Origin: Cumulibacter soli
Lineage (GTDB): Bacteria > Actinomycetota > Actinomycetes > Mycobacteriales > Antricoccaceae
Length of the DNA: 64,000 nt
Reading direction: 5' to 3'
NCBI RefSeq assembly: GCF_004382795.1
Contig: NZ_SMSG01000004.1
Coordinates: 62,001-126,000, forward strand
Below the pieces are notes generated by a model that was not told the origin of the DNA, made no database searches, and worked only from the letters and a program-made list of their open reading frames with translations. Below are positions 43,007-48,397 of this stretch, piece by piece; positions within the stretch are counted from its first letter, which is position 1; each line of letters begins with the position of its first letter. A program made the position numbers and the translations under genes.

Positions 43007-43019
43007 CACGCTCGGCCGG

Positions 43020-43077
43020 TTCTGCGGGGCTGCGAGTAACGCTCGACACTCGATAGCGTTACTCGCAGCCCGCAGAA
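43020..43077. terminator. Long hairpin after the aminotransferase
   Basis: Arms 43020-43043 and 43055-43077 pair over 23 bp with one unpaired base, around an 11-nt loop. It isolates the following HSP90 operon from the aminotransferase gene. Confidence 0.8.
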
Positions 43078-43100
43078 CTTCATGAGAGAGACGGACGGAT

Positions 43101-44879
43101 ATGCGCGAGCAGTTCCAGGTCAACCTGCGCGGCATCGTGGAGATACTCTCGCATCACCTCTACTCCAGCCCTCGGGTCTACCTGCGCGAATTGATCCAGA
43201 ACGGCCGCGACGCGATCACCGCGCGCCGCAATCTCGATCCGTCAACCTCCGGGGCCATTCAGATCCGAGTGGACGCCACGAATGGCGCTCTGATCATCAG
43301 CGATAACGGCATCGGGCTCACCGCGGACGAGATGCGTAGTCTGCTCGCGACGATTGGCGCCTCCTCCAAGCGGTCGGACTTCTCGTCCGTACGCAGCGAT
43401 TTCCTCGGTCAGTTCGGCATCGGTCTGCTGTCCTGCTTCCTGATCTCCGACGAGATCGAGGTCCGCTCGCGCAGCGCGAAGACTGCCGACGCTGGTACGG
43501 ATCGCTGGGTCGGGTACGCCGACGGCACATTCACGGTCACGCCGGCCGACGAGCCGCTCGACTCACCCGGGACCGAAGTCGTGGTGCGTCCTCGCCGCGG
43601 GGAACATGAATGGACCAGCGCCGCGCGAGTGCGCACGCTCGCCGAAGACTTCGCTCGCTACCTCGAGGTGCCGATTCACGTTGACGGCGAGTTGGTGAGC
43701 CAGCAGATCCCACCGTGGCGGATGCCGCGCGAGCAGGCAGAAGCCTTCTGCCGTCGAGAGTTCGGGTTCGCGCCGCTGGACGTGCTCCCACTTCACTTCG
43801 ACCTGCTCGGGTTCAACGGCGTCGCGTACGTCCTGGATTCACCTGGACGTATCGGCGATCGGGCCGGGGACACTGTTTACGCGCGTGGAATGCTGCTTTC
43901 GACGCGCAACGATCAATTGGCCCCACCGTGGGCATATTTCGTGCGGATCGTCGCTGACTGCGGTCCGCTGGCACCCACCGCATCGCGCGAAGCGCTGCAG
44001 GAGAATGCGCTGCTCGGCGACGTCAAGAAGGCGATCGGACGGAGGATCCGCGACCACATCGACGATATGTCCGCCGACTCCCCCGCCCGATTTGCGGCAT
44101 TCTGCGACGTCCACGCGACCGGCCTACGAGCTCTGGCGGTCAACGACGACGAGATGCTGGACTTCGTCTGTCGGCACCTGCCAGTCGTCTCCACGGTCGG
44201 TCGCCGTCCCCTGGATGACCTGCTCGCGCAGTACGACGACGTCCACTTCGTTCGGTCCGTCGCGGAGTACGGCGGCCTCGCGGACCTGTCGCGCGCGCAG
44301 GGCATGGTGCTGATCAATGGCGGCTATGTCTACGAATCAGAGATTTTGGGCAAGGCGCAGGCTCGACGTCCTCAGGCGCGGATCTCCGAACTCGATCTAC
44401 TCAGCGTGATCGACTTACTCCCGGAGCCACGCGAAGCCGACCGCCAATTGGCTGCGCGGGTCATCGCGGCCTGGGACGAGTTACCGATCTCGGCCGACGT
44501 CCGGCTCCGATTGAAGTCGTTCTCGCCGGTTTCTACCCCGTCGCTGTTCGCTCCCGGCCGCACGTACATGCCCGATGTCAACGAAGATCCCGATCCAATG
44601 GCTGACATATTGGGCGAGTTCGCCGTGGTACCCGAAAATGTCCCGCCCCAGCTGGTCCTGAACCTGCTCAGCCCACCGGTGCGTGCGCTGGGTGCGACAT
44701 CGCGCGGTGACATCGCGCGCGACTCAATTCGCTCCCTGTATGGACTCGGACTGCTGTTGGCCGGACAGCAACTCGGCGAACACCAAGCCCTCGCCCTCAG
44801 CCAGTCCCTACACACCTTGATCGTCGCGGCGGCCGATCGACAGAACCCATCTATACAAGGAGACAGCGCGCCATGGTGA
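43101..44879 (+). CDS. HSP90-family chaperone-like ATPase
   Basis: A 592-residue GHKL ATPase with the Hsp90 layout: N-terminal ATPase (about 1-215), middle domain (about 220-500), and a C-terminal region. Nucleotide-site residues are present: E30 and N34 in YLRELIQNGRDA, D68 in SDNGIGL, and the lid GQFGIGLLSCF (103-113). The middle domain keeps the conserved arginine in TASREALQEN. The lid, middle and C-terminal parts differ clearly from canonical HtpG, and the end has no C-terminal motif such as MEEVD. ATG at 43101. Its end overlaps the next gene by 7 bases (44873-44879), so the two are translationally coupled. Active ATP turnover is likely; clients are unknown. Confidence 0.88.
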   Translation: MREQFQVNLRGIVEILSHHLYSSPRVYLRELIQNGRDAITARRNLDPSTSGAIQIRVDATNGALIISDNGIGLTADEMRSLLATIGASSKRSDFSSVRSDFLGQFGIGLLSCFLISDEIEVRSRSAKTADAGTDRWVGYADGTFTVTPADEPLDSPGTEVVVRPRRGEHEWTSAARVRTLAEDFARYLEVPIHVDGELVSQQIPPWRMPREQAEAFCRREFGFAPLDVLPLHFDLLGFNGVAYVLDSPGRIGDRAGDTVYARGMLLSTRNDQLAPPWAYFVRIVADCGPLAPTASREALQENALLGDVKKAIGRRIRDHIDDMSADSPARFAAFCDVHATGLRALAVNDDEMLDFVCRHLPVVSTVGRRPLDDLLAQYDDVHFVRSVAEYGGLADLSRAQGMVLINGGYVYESEILGKAQARRPQARISELDLLSVIDLLPEPREADRQLAARVIAAWDELPISADVRLRLKSFSPVSTPSLFAPGRTYMPDVNEDPDPMADILGEFAVVPENVPPQLVLNLLSPPVRALGATSRGDIARDSIRSLYGLGLLLAGQQLGEHQALALSQSLHTLIVAAADRQNPSIQGDSAPW

Positions 44880-45919
44880 TTCGCCACGACGATGAGTGGC
44901 CAGCCGACCTAGAGGACGTGCTCGACGATCTCGTCGAGCGCTACCTGGCTCTCGACACGCTGGATGACCCAGAACAACTGGAAGCAGCTGCGGAAGCGCT
45001 GTACACGGACGTGGCCGCCATCGAGTATCCGCAGCTGATGCTGATGGTGCTCGCGAGTTTGTACTCGTCCCAGTACGACCGCGATGCCGGGGCCGAATCG
45101 CTCGGGACCTACTTGCGAATGAATCGCATCATCGTCAAGCACCGCGACGCTATCGATCCGACGATCGCCGAAAACATGCAAATGCTGATCGTGATCGCCG
45201 CCGGGACGCTGGCTCAGATGCCCGACGTACCACTGTCTCGGATCATCGCGTTGCTGGATGCCGCCGAACAGCAAGTACGCGCCGCCGGCGATCCCCTGGA
45301 TAACGTGCTGCTCAGCCGTGGCGTGGTGGCCGCGCTGTGCGGCGACTTGGACGGCGCCCGCACCTACCGTGAGCAATGGCGCGCCGCCGAGCCGTACTCC
45401 TCACCGGTGCCACGCACCGCTGCGCTCCAGATGGACGCGATCATCGCTCTGACGTACGACGCCGACCTGGCGCTCGAAATCATCGAGCGGTTCATGCCGT
45501 ACGACGCGTTGGAAGAGAAGCACACGATCATGCTGCAGGCGCATCGCGCGTACAGCCTGGCGTTAGTCGGTCGGGCCCAGGAAGCCGAGCGCGAAGCGGT
45601 CGCGGTGATGTTGCAACACGACCCGGAACTGGTGCGTACGAGATCAACGCATCTCTACCTCTTGCGGGCGCTGGAAGGCAATCCGACGCTGGCGAACGCC
45701 GTCCTAGGATGGATGAGCGACGATCTCACCGAGGACTCAGCCGCCTCCGAGTACGAGACTCAAGCCGTCGCGGCGCGATACCTGCTGCGTTCACCCGAGA
45801 CTCACGAACGCGGACTGGCGATGCGGGAGTTGGCGCTGCGTAACGCCGCGCTGTTTGACGCGCGCAATGGCAATACGTTCGTCACGGACACCGTCATACG
45901 CGATCACCTGGCGGCCTGA
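44873..45919 (+). CDS. Helical-repeat (TPR-like) partner of HSP90-family protein, copy 1
   Basis: A 348-residue, probably all-helical protein with tetratricopeptide-like periodicity (for example YPQLMLMVLASLYSSQ, LLSRGVVAALCGDLDGARTY, MLQAHRAYSLALVGRAQEAE). The C-terminus carries LALRNAALFDARNGNTFVTD, which is nearly identical in the next gene. Overlaps the HSP90 gene by 7 bp and precedes its paralogue by 6 bp. No catalytic motif, signal peptide or membrane segment. In eukaryotes TPR proteins are Hsp90 co-chaperones; the same role here is inference. Confidence 0.75.
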   Translation: MVIRHDDEWPADLEDVLDDLVERYLALDTLDDPEQLEAAAEALYTDVAAIEYPQLMLMVLASLYSSQYDRDAGAESLGTYLRMNRIIVKHRDAIDPTIAENMQMLIVIAAGTLAQMPDVPLSRIIALLDAAEQQVRAAGDPLDNVLLSRGVVAALCGDLDGARTYREQWRAAEPYSSPVPRTAALQMDAIIALTYDADLALEIIERFMPYDALEEKHTIMLQAHRAYSLALVGRAQEAEREAVAVMLQHDPELVRTRSTHLYLLRALEGNPTLANAVLGWMSDDLTEDSAASEYETQAVAARYLLRSPETHERGLAMRELALRNAALFDARNGNTFVTDTVIRDHLAA

Positions 45920-45925
45920 CCGGCC

Positions 45926-46972
45926 ATGGTGATCGCCTTCGATGACGAGATTCCAGCCGCACTCGAATCTCAGTTCGACGACCTATTCGAGCGATACGAA
46001 GCTCTGAAGCACCTCGACGATCCGCACGCGGTGACCGCGGCCGCCGAGTCGATTTACCGCGATGCCACCGAGCTCGACTACCCACAACTGATGGTGATGG
46101 CGCTTGGCAAGTTGTATTCAGCGCAGTGGGATCTAGGCGCGCGGGCGGAAAGTCTCACCACCTACGTCCGCTTCAACCAAATCGCGACGAAGTACCGCGC
46201 CGCGCTGTATCCCGACCTGGCCGGGATAGCTCGCCTGTATGTGGTGATCTCACTAGACACCTTGCTGGACATGCCTGACGTGCCGCTGTCTCGCATTCAC
46301 GCACTCGTCGACACCGTCGAACAACAGTCGCGTGCCGAGGGAGATCCGCTCGATGTGGCGTACCTCTGCCGCGCGATCGTTGCCATGCAGACCGGCGATC
46401 CTGACGGCGCTCGGCGGTGGCGCGAGAAGTGGCACGCCGCCGAGCCGTATGATTCGGCCCTGCCACGCGTCGCCGCCGCCAATCTCGGCGCATCAATCGC
46501 GGGTAGTTTCGATCCTCAGCTTGCAGTGGCCGCCCTCGAAACCACCGGCCCCTACGATGCCATGCAGGAGCACGACGCCATCGCGCTGCGTTCGCACCGC
46601 GCCTTTCGGCTTGCGCTCGTGGGGCGCGTCGTCGAGGCCGAAGAGGAGGCGGTAGCAGTGATGCGGCAGTATCCGCACGATCTGATCGAACAGGAAGCCA
46701 CACATATCAATCTGCTACGCGCATTGGAGGGCCGCGGAGACTTCGCCGAACTGATCTTGGGCTGGATGGCCGACGATATCGCCGCTGACGCCCCCGCTCG
46801 GGAATACGAGAGCCAGGCGATCGCGGCTCGCTACTTCCTGCGCTCCGCGCAGACCCGGGAGCGGGGGCTCGCACTTAAGGAGGTGGCGCTGCGAAATGCG
46901 GCGCTATTCGATGCCCGCAACGGCAACACCTTCGTCACCGACTCCATCGGACGCAATCACTTCAGCGACTAA
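45926..46972 (+). CDS. Helical-repeat (TPR-like) partner of HSP90-family protein, copy 2
   Basis: A 348-residue paralogue of the preceding gene, alike over the whole length: both start MVI..DDE, share DDLxERYxAL, YPQLMxMxLxxLYS and MPDVPLSRI, and end in NAALFDARNGNTFVTD. Equal length and adjacency show tandem duplication. Sequence has diverged, so the copies may have separate partners or form a heterodimer. Last gene of the HSP90 operon. The 65-bp gap to the RHH gene stop (47038) shows no clear feature. Confidence 0.75.
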   Translation: MVIAFDDEIPAALESQFDDLFERYEALKHLDDPHAVTAAAESIYRDATELDYPQLMVMALGKLYSAQWDLGARAESLTTYVRFNQIATKYRAALYPDLAGIARLYVVISLDTLLDMPDVPLSRIHALVDTVEQQSRAEGDPLDVAYLCRAIVAMQTGDPDGARRWREKWHAAEPYDSALPRVAAANLGASIAGSFDPQLAVAALETTGPYDAMQEHDAIALRSHRAFRLALVGRVVEAEEEAVAVMRQYPHDLIEQEATHINLLRALEGRGDFAELILGWMADDIAADAPAREYESQAIAARYFLRSAQTRERGLALKEVALRNAALFDARNGNTFVTDSIGRNHFSD

Positions 46973-47037
46973 CTGCACCGGCGGCTACCGCTTGATCGCC
47001 GGTCGCGGTCGCTGGTCTCCGGTTGCGCGGATGTCAG

Positions 47038-47277
47038 CTATAACTGCGGATCTATCGGCGGACGCCCACGCCGCGGCAACTCTCCCATCGCCTTAGGGCT
47101 GCGATGCGCGGATTTCAACGCCTGCCGCAGAATCACCTCTATCTGGGCGTTGACGCTCCGTAACTCATCAGCGGCCCACCGCTGCAGCGCCTCGTGGACG
47201 GCGGGGTCGAGTCGCAGCAGTACCGATTTGCGCTCGGCCGACTTTCGTTTACGCGGCCGCGCGGCCTCGTCGTTCAT
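47038..47277 (-). CDS. Ribbon-helix-helix (HicB/Arc-like) small regulator
   Basis: A 79-residue basic protein. [37 protein letters not shown] is split as a short strand (KSVLLRL) and two helices, the ribbon-helix-helix pattern. Basic tails at both ends. It lies 12 bp downstream of the SPFH gene on the same strand. Similar pairs of an SPFH protein with a HicB/Arc-type gene occur in actinobacteria. It may autoregulate through the palindrome at 48277-48297. No toxin gene is next to it, so an antitoxin role is not supported. Confidence 0.7.
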
Positions 47278-47289
47278 CGGACATCCGGT

Positions 47290-48258
47290 CTAGTACAGCG
47301 ATCCGGCGTTAACCACCGGAGTTGTACCGCGCTCGGAGCACAGCACTACGAGAAGGTTGGAGACCATCGTGGCGCGTCGCTCCTCATCGAGTTCGACCAC
47401 TCCCTGCGCCTCCAAGCGCGTCAGCGCGCCATCAACCATTCCCACTGCACCCTCGACGATCTTCTCGCGCGCGGCGATAATCGCCGAGGCCTGCTGGCGC
47501 TGCAGCATAGCCTGCGCGATCTCCTGTGCATACGCGAGCGCGGAGATCCGCACCTCGATCACCTCGAGTCCGGCCAACGTGATGCGTTCGGCTACTTCGT
47601 CCGCCAGTTCGCCGGAGATGATGTCGGTATCACCGCGCAGGGTCACCTCGGTGGCGTCATTGTCATACGGGTGACTCATCGCGACATGCCGCAGCGCAGA
47701 CTCGGCCTGGACGGCAACGAAGTCTTCGTACTCCTCCACCGCGAACGTCGCCTTAGCGGTATCCGCGACCTGCCACACCACGATGGCGGCGATATTGATC
47801 GGGTTGCCGTCGGCGTCGTTGACCTTCAACTCGTGGGTCTCGAAGTTGTGCACCCGCACGGACACCTTCTTGTGCGTACTCAGCGGCACGACCATCCGCA
47901 GACCGGCCTTGCGAACCGTTCCGATGTAGCGGCCGAAGAACTGCACAACTTGCGTCTGCCCCGGCGGCACGATGACCAGTGAGGTCCCTAGCAGGATGCC
48001 GATCAGCACCAGAATAATCCCACCGACCAGCGCGGCCACCGCACCGCCACCGCTGTCGCCGCCATCGAGGGCAATCGCACCGGAAACCACCAGCCAAGTT
48101 CCGAGTCCAAGCAAGACCAGCGAAATCACTAGGCCCGCGAACCCGTCAATCGACCAGGCCCTGCGCTCGCTCACATCAACCCGCGAGCCATCCGGGCCGA
48201 CCGGAGTTCCCGCTGGCTGCCCGCCGGTTGAGTTCTCGTCATGCACCAACTGCGTCAT
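47290..48258 (-). CDS. SPFH/band-7 domain membrane protein
   Basis: A 322-residue protein. Two hydrophobic segments (about 36-55 and 70-95) are followed by the SPFH domain (about 95-280): [52 protein letters not shown] and [20 protein letters not shown]. The C-terminal helix [20 protein letters not shown] is the usual oligomerising part. Such proteins form ring-like membrane scaffolds. Expressed with the RHH gene downstream. A perfect 7-bp inverted repeat sits just upstream of its start. Confidence 0.88.
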
Positions 48259-48276
48259 GATGTGCTCCCTATCGTC

Positions 48277-48297
48277 GTGATATTAAAACGATATCAC
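48277..48297. promoter_or_regulatory. Inverted repeat upstream of the SPFH gene, probable operator
   Basis: Arms GTGATAT and ATATCAC are exact reverse complements with a 7-nt centre, 18 bp before the SPFH start. The AT-rich site stands out from the local GC content and is a reasonable target for the small ribbon-helix-helix protein of the same operon. Confidence 0.55.
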
Positions 48298-48397
48298 TTT
48301 ATTGGCAGAGTGCCGAACAATAGAGAGCTAAGGCGCGAAGGAACGCACCTCAACAGAAGCAGGTCCGTCTGCCACCAGCAGGGAGGGCGAGAGGAAC

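Follow-up and report, generated by a model that had tools for sequence, protein, structure and literature searches.

A 64,000-nt stretch of Cumulibacter soli DNA (contig NZ_SMSG01000004.1, positions 62,001-126,000; hereafter the window, with feature coordinates counted from its start) carries a gene for an HSP90-family ATPase followed by two tandem genes, P1 and P2, for helical-repeat proteins of the tetratricopeptide repeat (TPR) type. From profile comparisons and structural models, this unit is read, with moderate confidence, as a bacterial Hsp90 chaperone with a dedicated TPR-superhelix co-chaperone or client adaptor, present here in two tandem copies. Genome comparison showed the tightly spaced, mostly overlapping pair of predicted HSP90 and partner genes to be conserved within the Actinomycetes, and the pair was also found in two Bacillota records. 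The three genes of the window are as follows.

43101-44879, plus strand: HSP90-family ATPase, 592 aa (NF010683 profile match; fold match to TRAP1 and HtpG).
44873-45919, plus strand: P1, TPR-type helical superhelix protein, 348 aa (AlphaFold2 model, MalT fold match, hhalign).
45926-46972, plus strand: P2, tandem paralogue of P1, 348 aa (weak TPR_4 match).

The three-gene layout given in the initial annotation of this DNA was borne out. All frames lie on the plus strand, the HSP90 gene and P1 overlap by 7 bp, and P1 and P2 are separated by 6 bp. P2 had also been described as a full-length paralogue of P1, and the two proteins, equal in length, are 56% identical over 347 residues in a gapless alignment.

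The HSP90 protein scored 562.4 bits against NCBIfam NF010683 ('HSP90 family protein', PRK14083), above the curated cut-off of 455, and 174.5 bits against the HtpG model NF003555, under its cut-off of 371. By these profile scores, it is a member of a separate family and not HtpG proper. The Pfam HSP90 model matched one place only in the C. soli genome, the window gene. The protein has an N-terminal GHKL ATP-binding domain, a middle domain containing R296 and an HSP90-like C-terminal domain. The intact ATP site and middle-domain arginine noted earlier were confirmed, with E30, N34, D68 and R296 invariant across an alignment of 16 proteins that includes the window's own. Residues G72, K90 and G103-G108, including the glycine-rich lid, were also invariant in this alignment, and R296 sits within an invariant TASRE stretch.

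The HSP90 model was of moderate confidence (pLDDT 82.6, pTM 0.70). Foldseek aligned it to TRAP1 over 613 alignment columns (E 1.8e-33) and likewise to HtpG over ~610 columns, and the family profile aligned to residues 4-610 of HtpG (2iop). Because the fold alignments to TRAP1 and HtpG, and the profile alignment to HtpG residue 610, take in this region, the predicted C-terminal (dimerisation) domain is present and of Hsp90 type. At the level of sequence and model, the Hsp90 ATPase architecture is demonstrated to be intact. The canonical bacterial Hsp90, HtpG, has the three-domain fold in common with the window protein, but the latter lies under the HtpG cut-off, and HtpG-type loci lack an adjoining P1-type partner.

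The HSP90 family is already known: it is annotated, and an excerpt of Chen et al. 2006 (PMC1525184) describes bacterial HTPG groups A, B and C. The same excerpt reports that S. coelicolor has two HTPG copies, of 638 and 615 aa, belonging to different groups; the shorter probably corresponds to the NF010683 family. The word 'tetratricopeptide' is absent from that text. The Listeria, Paenibacillus and G373 proteins described below pass the NF010683 cut-off, as the window protein does. The family covers HSP90 alone, whereas the TPR partners of the window exceed no Pfam or NCBIfam cut-off.

The AlphaFold2 model of P1 consists of all-helical repeats (mean pLDDT 92.1, pTM 0.88). The closest solved fold was MalT domain III (Z 20.3, 315 residues, rmsd 4.5), and Rap regulators were among the other closest folds (Z 16-17). 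Identity in the structural alignments to MalT and Rap was 6-12%, and Foldseek on the P1 model gave nothing below E 1e-3. P1 is predicted with high confidence to be an antiparallel helical-pair, TPR-type superhelix, in keeping with the helical repeats proposed earlier. MalT domain III and the Rap/NprR TPR domains are among its closest solved folds, but P1 has no DNA-binding or phosphatase part and is encoded alongside an Hsp90.

P1 gave no Pfam TPR match, and P2 matched TPR_4 at 18.1 bits, under the gathering score of 27. Two homologues exceeded a Pfam TPR cut-off, one from a Streptomyces-like locus (L044; TPR_12, 30.5 against 30.1) and one Listeria protein (TPR_8, 26.1 against 25.7); the four others tested (L048, L042, L043 and the second Listeria protein) were under the cut-offs. 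A long partner of ~1000 aa occurs in other actinobacteria, and P1 and P2 match its first ~350 residues (hhalign probability 99.5, P1 residues 17-344); partner length ranges from 348 to about 1000 aa. As judged from these alignments, P1 and P2 are one duplicated module, found elsewhere as the N-terminal domain of a longer protein. A terminal FDxRNG motif is mostly common to the partners, and reads FDARNE in Listeria and FDRRNG in Paenibacillus. In one Streptomyces-like copy (L047, G023:C1), the HSP90 gene is intact and the partner frame next to it, at 565 aa, has roughly half the usual length and is perhaps truncated.

The pairing was analysed in an even sample of 394 genomes of the class (the name of which, Actinomycetes, was inferred). 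NF010683 was over cut-off at 53 places in 46 genomes, and the partner gene lay next downstream on the same strand at 52 of them. At the exception (G373), a different TPR gene lies downstream (Pfam TPR_2, 27.8 against 27; TPR_8, 27.7 against 25.7) and overlaps the HSP90 stop codon as ATGA. Both genes occurred in 45 genomes, HSP90 only in 1, partner only in 5 and neither in 343. Seven of the 61 partner places were away from an NF010683 gene, one of them weak (G629). The initial annotation had proposed the two proteins as dedicated partners or clients, perhaps forming a complex; the rarity of the partner apart from HSP90 and the confidently predicted helical repeats are in line with dedicated partners. 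The partnership is not peculiar to C. soli, as the pair recurs in many actinobacteria.

Within the small family of the window, HSP90 was found in 3/5 genomes and a partner adjoins in those same three, as two tandem copies in two genomes and a single copy in the third. A first genome-contig search with P1 alone found 0 relatives; whole-genome and profile searches found them. A P1-only search of 101 genomes gave three extra weak matches (G326, G335 and G376; E 1e-4 to 6e-4). In G335 and G376 the match adjoins an HSP90 gene whose product closely resembles that of the window (phmmer E at most 1e-104); in G326, where the match lies at a contig end, the 15 kb covered showed no HSP90. One of the seven partner places away from NF010683, in G740, has no HSP90 gene and is flanked by RecG- and DAK-like genes (identified from their starts), the setting in which Streptomyces copies are found. 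In two order relatives (L099, 8265-10019; L100, 7957-9609), a partner-domain protein without HSP90 is beside a large gene that looks by eye like FtsK. A proper HSP90-partner pair is also present elsewhere in the genome of G322. In G657 (C1, 2671016-2672793), two slightly overlapping frames share the HSP90 match (profile positions 4-217 and 215-600), possibly a frameshift or sequencing error.

Among named genomes, the best 80 of 577 relatives were taken as loci; 4 of the 80 coincide with class-set loci, and the two sets are not wholly independent. The partner was downstream at 74 loci, directly upstream at 4 and not recognised at 2. The four upstream cases are all Pseudoclavibacter, with swapped gene order on the same strand, and their partners carry a second partner domain, clear in three and weak in L110. 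As a control, no partner match was found at 20 HtpG-type (sub-cut-off) loci with 269-870 bp downstream covered, compared with a match at 10/10 NF010683 loci with 1455-1497 bp covered. The combined set held 135 pairs (137 loci minus two from Phycicoccus), with start codons chosen by script. Among the 131 pairs with a downstream partner, 106 partner genes overlap the HSP90 gene, 20 follow after a gap of 0-30 bp and 5 after a larger one (median -4 bp).

Beyond the actinobacteria, in a Listeria monocytogenes record fri is followed by the gene for an HSP90 family protein (799 bits to NF010683) and next by a tandem pair annotated as 'hypothetical', whose products score 150.6 and 157.9 bits against the partner profile; the gene order is that of the window. 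The gene beside fri is lmo0942 in a passage of PMC3534079, and the next tags were assigned by numbering. Excerpts of two further papers give lmo0941 as hypothetical and of unknown function (PMC6901971) and list lmo0942 among heat-shock genes (PMC10393277). A Listeria 'plasmid 2' (L187, NZ_LR134399.1, 45430-55085; 394 kb) has fri, which papers place on the chromosome, and is probably a mislabelled chromosome piece. In Paenibacillus, the HSP90 gene (715 bits to NF010683) is overlapped by a 353-aa open reading frame that scores 169.2 bits against the partner profile, in one copy.

In Pseudomonas aeruginosa, the HSP90 relative is weaker, scoring 293 bits and so missing the cut-off, and the next gene encodes a 764-aa protein whose TPR matches are likewise sub-cut-off; we take the two genes to be PA1068 and PA1069. 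Homology of the 764-aa protein to P1 was unsupported (hhalign probability 1%). PA1069 is listed in the table of a section on BatR interactions, in an excerpt of PMC13411936; 'PA1068' in passages of PMC9995270 and PMC8315991 is a strain name and not this gene. Because different TPR proteins seem to fill the same place in two cases, G373 and, more weakly, P. aeruginosa, the comparison suggests that the TPR fold itself, rather than one particular protein, is what is needed beside HSP90. A Pseudanabaena plasmid (L190, 4222-9804) encodes an 877-aa HSP90-like protein beside a TIR-domain gene, with genes for a small protein and a TPR protein coming next, and may be a conflict-system relative.

These loci also bear on whether the genes are merely co-transcribed housekeeping neighbours with no joint function. 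Adjacency is kept in the Actinomycetes and in two Bacillota records, across the reversal of gene order and at different sites, and HtpG-type loci are without the partner; we judge mere neighbourhood to be very improbable.

Seven genomes carry two HSP90-partner pairs. For each copy, the partners of the five nearest HSP90 neighbours were assessed for whether they were closer to its own partner or to that of the other copy. The result was 5/5 both ways in six of the seven genomes, so the partners follow their own HSP90. The tandem copies are 56% (P1 and P2), 45% (G299) and 73% (Listeria) identical to each other, compared with 20-35% across genomes. These identities are as expected of three independent duplications of the partner module, with gene conversion another possibility. 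Two-domain partners were found in Pseudoclavibacter and in G710.

Because the operon is conserved and the genes are co-inherited, we infer that HSP90 and its partner are in contact. The Hsp90 dimer would run the usual ATP-driven clamp cycle, as its intact residues suggest. The TPR superhelix may bind it, and may select or hold client proteins or control how fast ATP is hydrolysed. The module has been duplicated repeatedly, whether into tandem genes or within one fused chain, which would suit a two-fold Hsp90 dimer engaging two modules.

The main alternative is that the TPR protein is a dedicated client, such as a scaffold or sensor, and that the adjoining HSP90 folds or assembles this large helical-repeat protein. 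Several features are consistent with a client: HSP90 is almost never found alone and the partner occasionally is, HSP90 is usually translated first from overlapping genes, partners differ widely in length, and among the folds nearest to the partner are the TPR parts of regulators (MalT domain III and Rap). The gene order is nevertheless swapped in the four Pseudoclavibacter, and in G373, perhaps also in P. aeruginosa (sub-cut-off), this position is filled by a distinct TPR gene, which suggests a need for the TPR fold and not for one client. We hold the client explanation to be rather unlikely, and continue to favour the co-chaperone or adaptor.

A number of observations weigh against a co-chaperone or adaptor. 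In 5/394 genomes, one of them a weak case, the partner has no NF010683 HSP90 and can therefore act by itself, and two Phycicoccus loci have an HSP90 without a partner recognisable by profile. At these loci (L112, 5362-10089; L165, 5356-10102), the HSP90 gene is directly upstream of genes that look by eye like gyrB and gyrA. In an even phylum sample of 296 genomes, NF010683 was over cut-off in 10, all of the window's own class. HSP90 and partner tree distances were correlated (r 0.94, 135 pairs) with species-tree kinship not removed, and co-inheritance in the two-pair genomes is the more telling comparison of the two. There, G710 gave 5/5 and 0/5; its second partner, which is diverged and has two domains, does not keep to the neighbours of its HSP90. 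None of the 135 HSP90s ends in EEVD. Since the MEEVD tail is absent in all of them, docking would differ from the eukaryotic mode, with the superhelix presumably binding a surface other than such a tail.

Similarly, heat-shock control was not apparent. CIRCE and HAIR consensus motifs were scanned in up to 300 bp upstream and 150 bp of frame at the 114 of 135 loci with enough sequence. CIRCE matches at these loci were no better than in shuffled sequence (the fewest mismatches were 6, at 1 locus, compared with 5 at 2 shuffled loci), and the best HAIR match had 4 mismatches at 6 loci, with no shuffled comparison. PA1069, which is not a P1 homologue, was lower at 46 °C in a heat-shock transcriptome, according to a passage of PMC4957987.

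A conflict or signalling module, in which a GHKL-ATPase switch works with a TPR sensor, for example in anti-phage defence, was also considered. Its patchy distribution (46/394 class genomes) would be consistent with such a role, as would the absence of the surrounding block from two sister genomes and the TIR-domain gene near the Pseudanabaena relative. Furthermore, HSP90s that span 90% or more of the query are encoded in three Streptomyces plasmid records; in the one checked, a 'hypothetical' gene follows. However, PADLOC assigned no family to six partner-side proteins (P1, P2 and four others), and the HSP90s gave only local TmtA and REase_II matches through the shared ATPase domain. recG and a DAK-domain gene were both in the covered flanks at 52 of the 93 loci with flanks; these surroundings are a stable chromosomal setting and not a defence island. 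One viral-contig scan with the partner profile gave two pattern matches, neither of them a relative, and a viral origin of the partner was unsupported. We regard a conflict module as quite improbable. The stress or defence role held possible in the initial annotation found no support, with no CIRCE-like site at the scanned loci and no defence-family match.

Hsp90 co-chaperones are generally treated as eukaryotic, and bacterial Hsp90 as working with DnaK. The eukaryotic TPR co-chaperones, including Hop, FKBP51/52 and PP5, carry a small three-repeat clamp that docks on the MEEVD tail. Eukaryotic cytosolic Hsp90 and the bacterial protein are alike in having seemingly dedicated TPR proteins. The bacterial pair differs in having no such tail, in being encoded in one operon and in its partner, a long MalT/Rap-like superhelix, with nothing to indicate that the TPR parts share an ancestor. 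Bacteria are without a Hop orthologue according to an excerpt of PMC7688965. In searches of open-licence literature, no paper recognisable as describing an Hsp90-TPR operon and no functional study of the NF010683 HSP90 family was found, and PMC7159879 makes no mention of HSP90, htpG or GHKL.

The findings suggest that, like their eukaryotic counterparts, certain bacterial Hsp90s come with helper proteins of their own. More broadly, and tentatively, bacteria may have their own Hsp90-TPR co-chaperone machinery. In this picture a non-HtpG lineage would be tied, in two or more phyla, to a TPR superhelix dedicated to it; that module would have been repeatedly duplicated, or exchanged for TPR proteins unrelated to it, and docking would be of a non-MEEVD kind; the Hsp90-TPR alliance would then have arisen more than once. 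The pairing raises the question of whether this coupling evolved repeatedly. A conserved pair in tractable bacteria would make it possible to study a minimal Hsp90 that has a single dedicated helper. It would also provide this annotated Hsp90 family, and its 'hypothetical' neighbours, with a function that can be tested.

Two further features surround the unit in the window.

43007-48397, no strand assigned: block between an aspartate aminotransferase gene and purF, edges approximate, delimited by synteny with L195 (G296) and L196 (G297).
43027-43071, no strand assigned: perfect inverted repeat with 17-nt arms and an 11-nt loop, lying in the spacer that separates the HSP90 gene from its upstream neighbour, a member of a dispersed palindromic repeat.

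The block contains the HSP90-P1-P2 unit and two opposite-strand genes. The first (47038-47277, minus strand) encodes 79 aa with a ribbon-helix-helix look, and the second (47290-48258, minus strand) a 322-aa SPFH/band-7-like protein, both judged by eye. In the two same-genus genomes used for synteny, the aminotransferase and purF genes are close and none of the block's five genes is in that stretch. As the block is missing at that site in both, it was either gained in C. soli or lost in the sister genomes. Two other genomes (G298 and G299) have the HSP90-partner unit with other neighbours than in the window.

The initial annotation had described a strong hairpin isolating the unit upstream. The hairpin exists, with perfect arms at 43027-43043 and 43055-43071, but it is no special feature of the HSP90 unit, since the palindromic repeat at 43018-43078 occurs at 11 distinct places in the C. 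soli genome, one of them partial. The dispersed repeat is possibly a terminator or a REP-like element.

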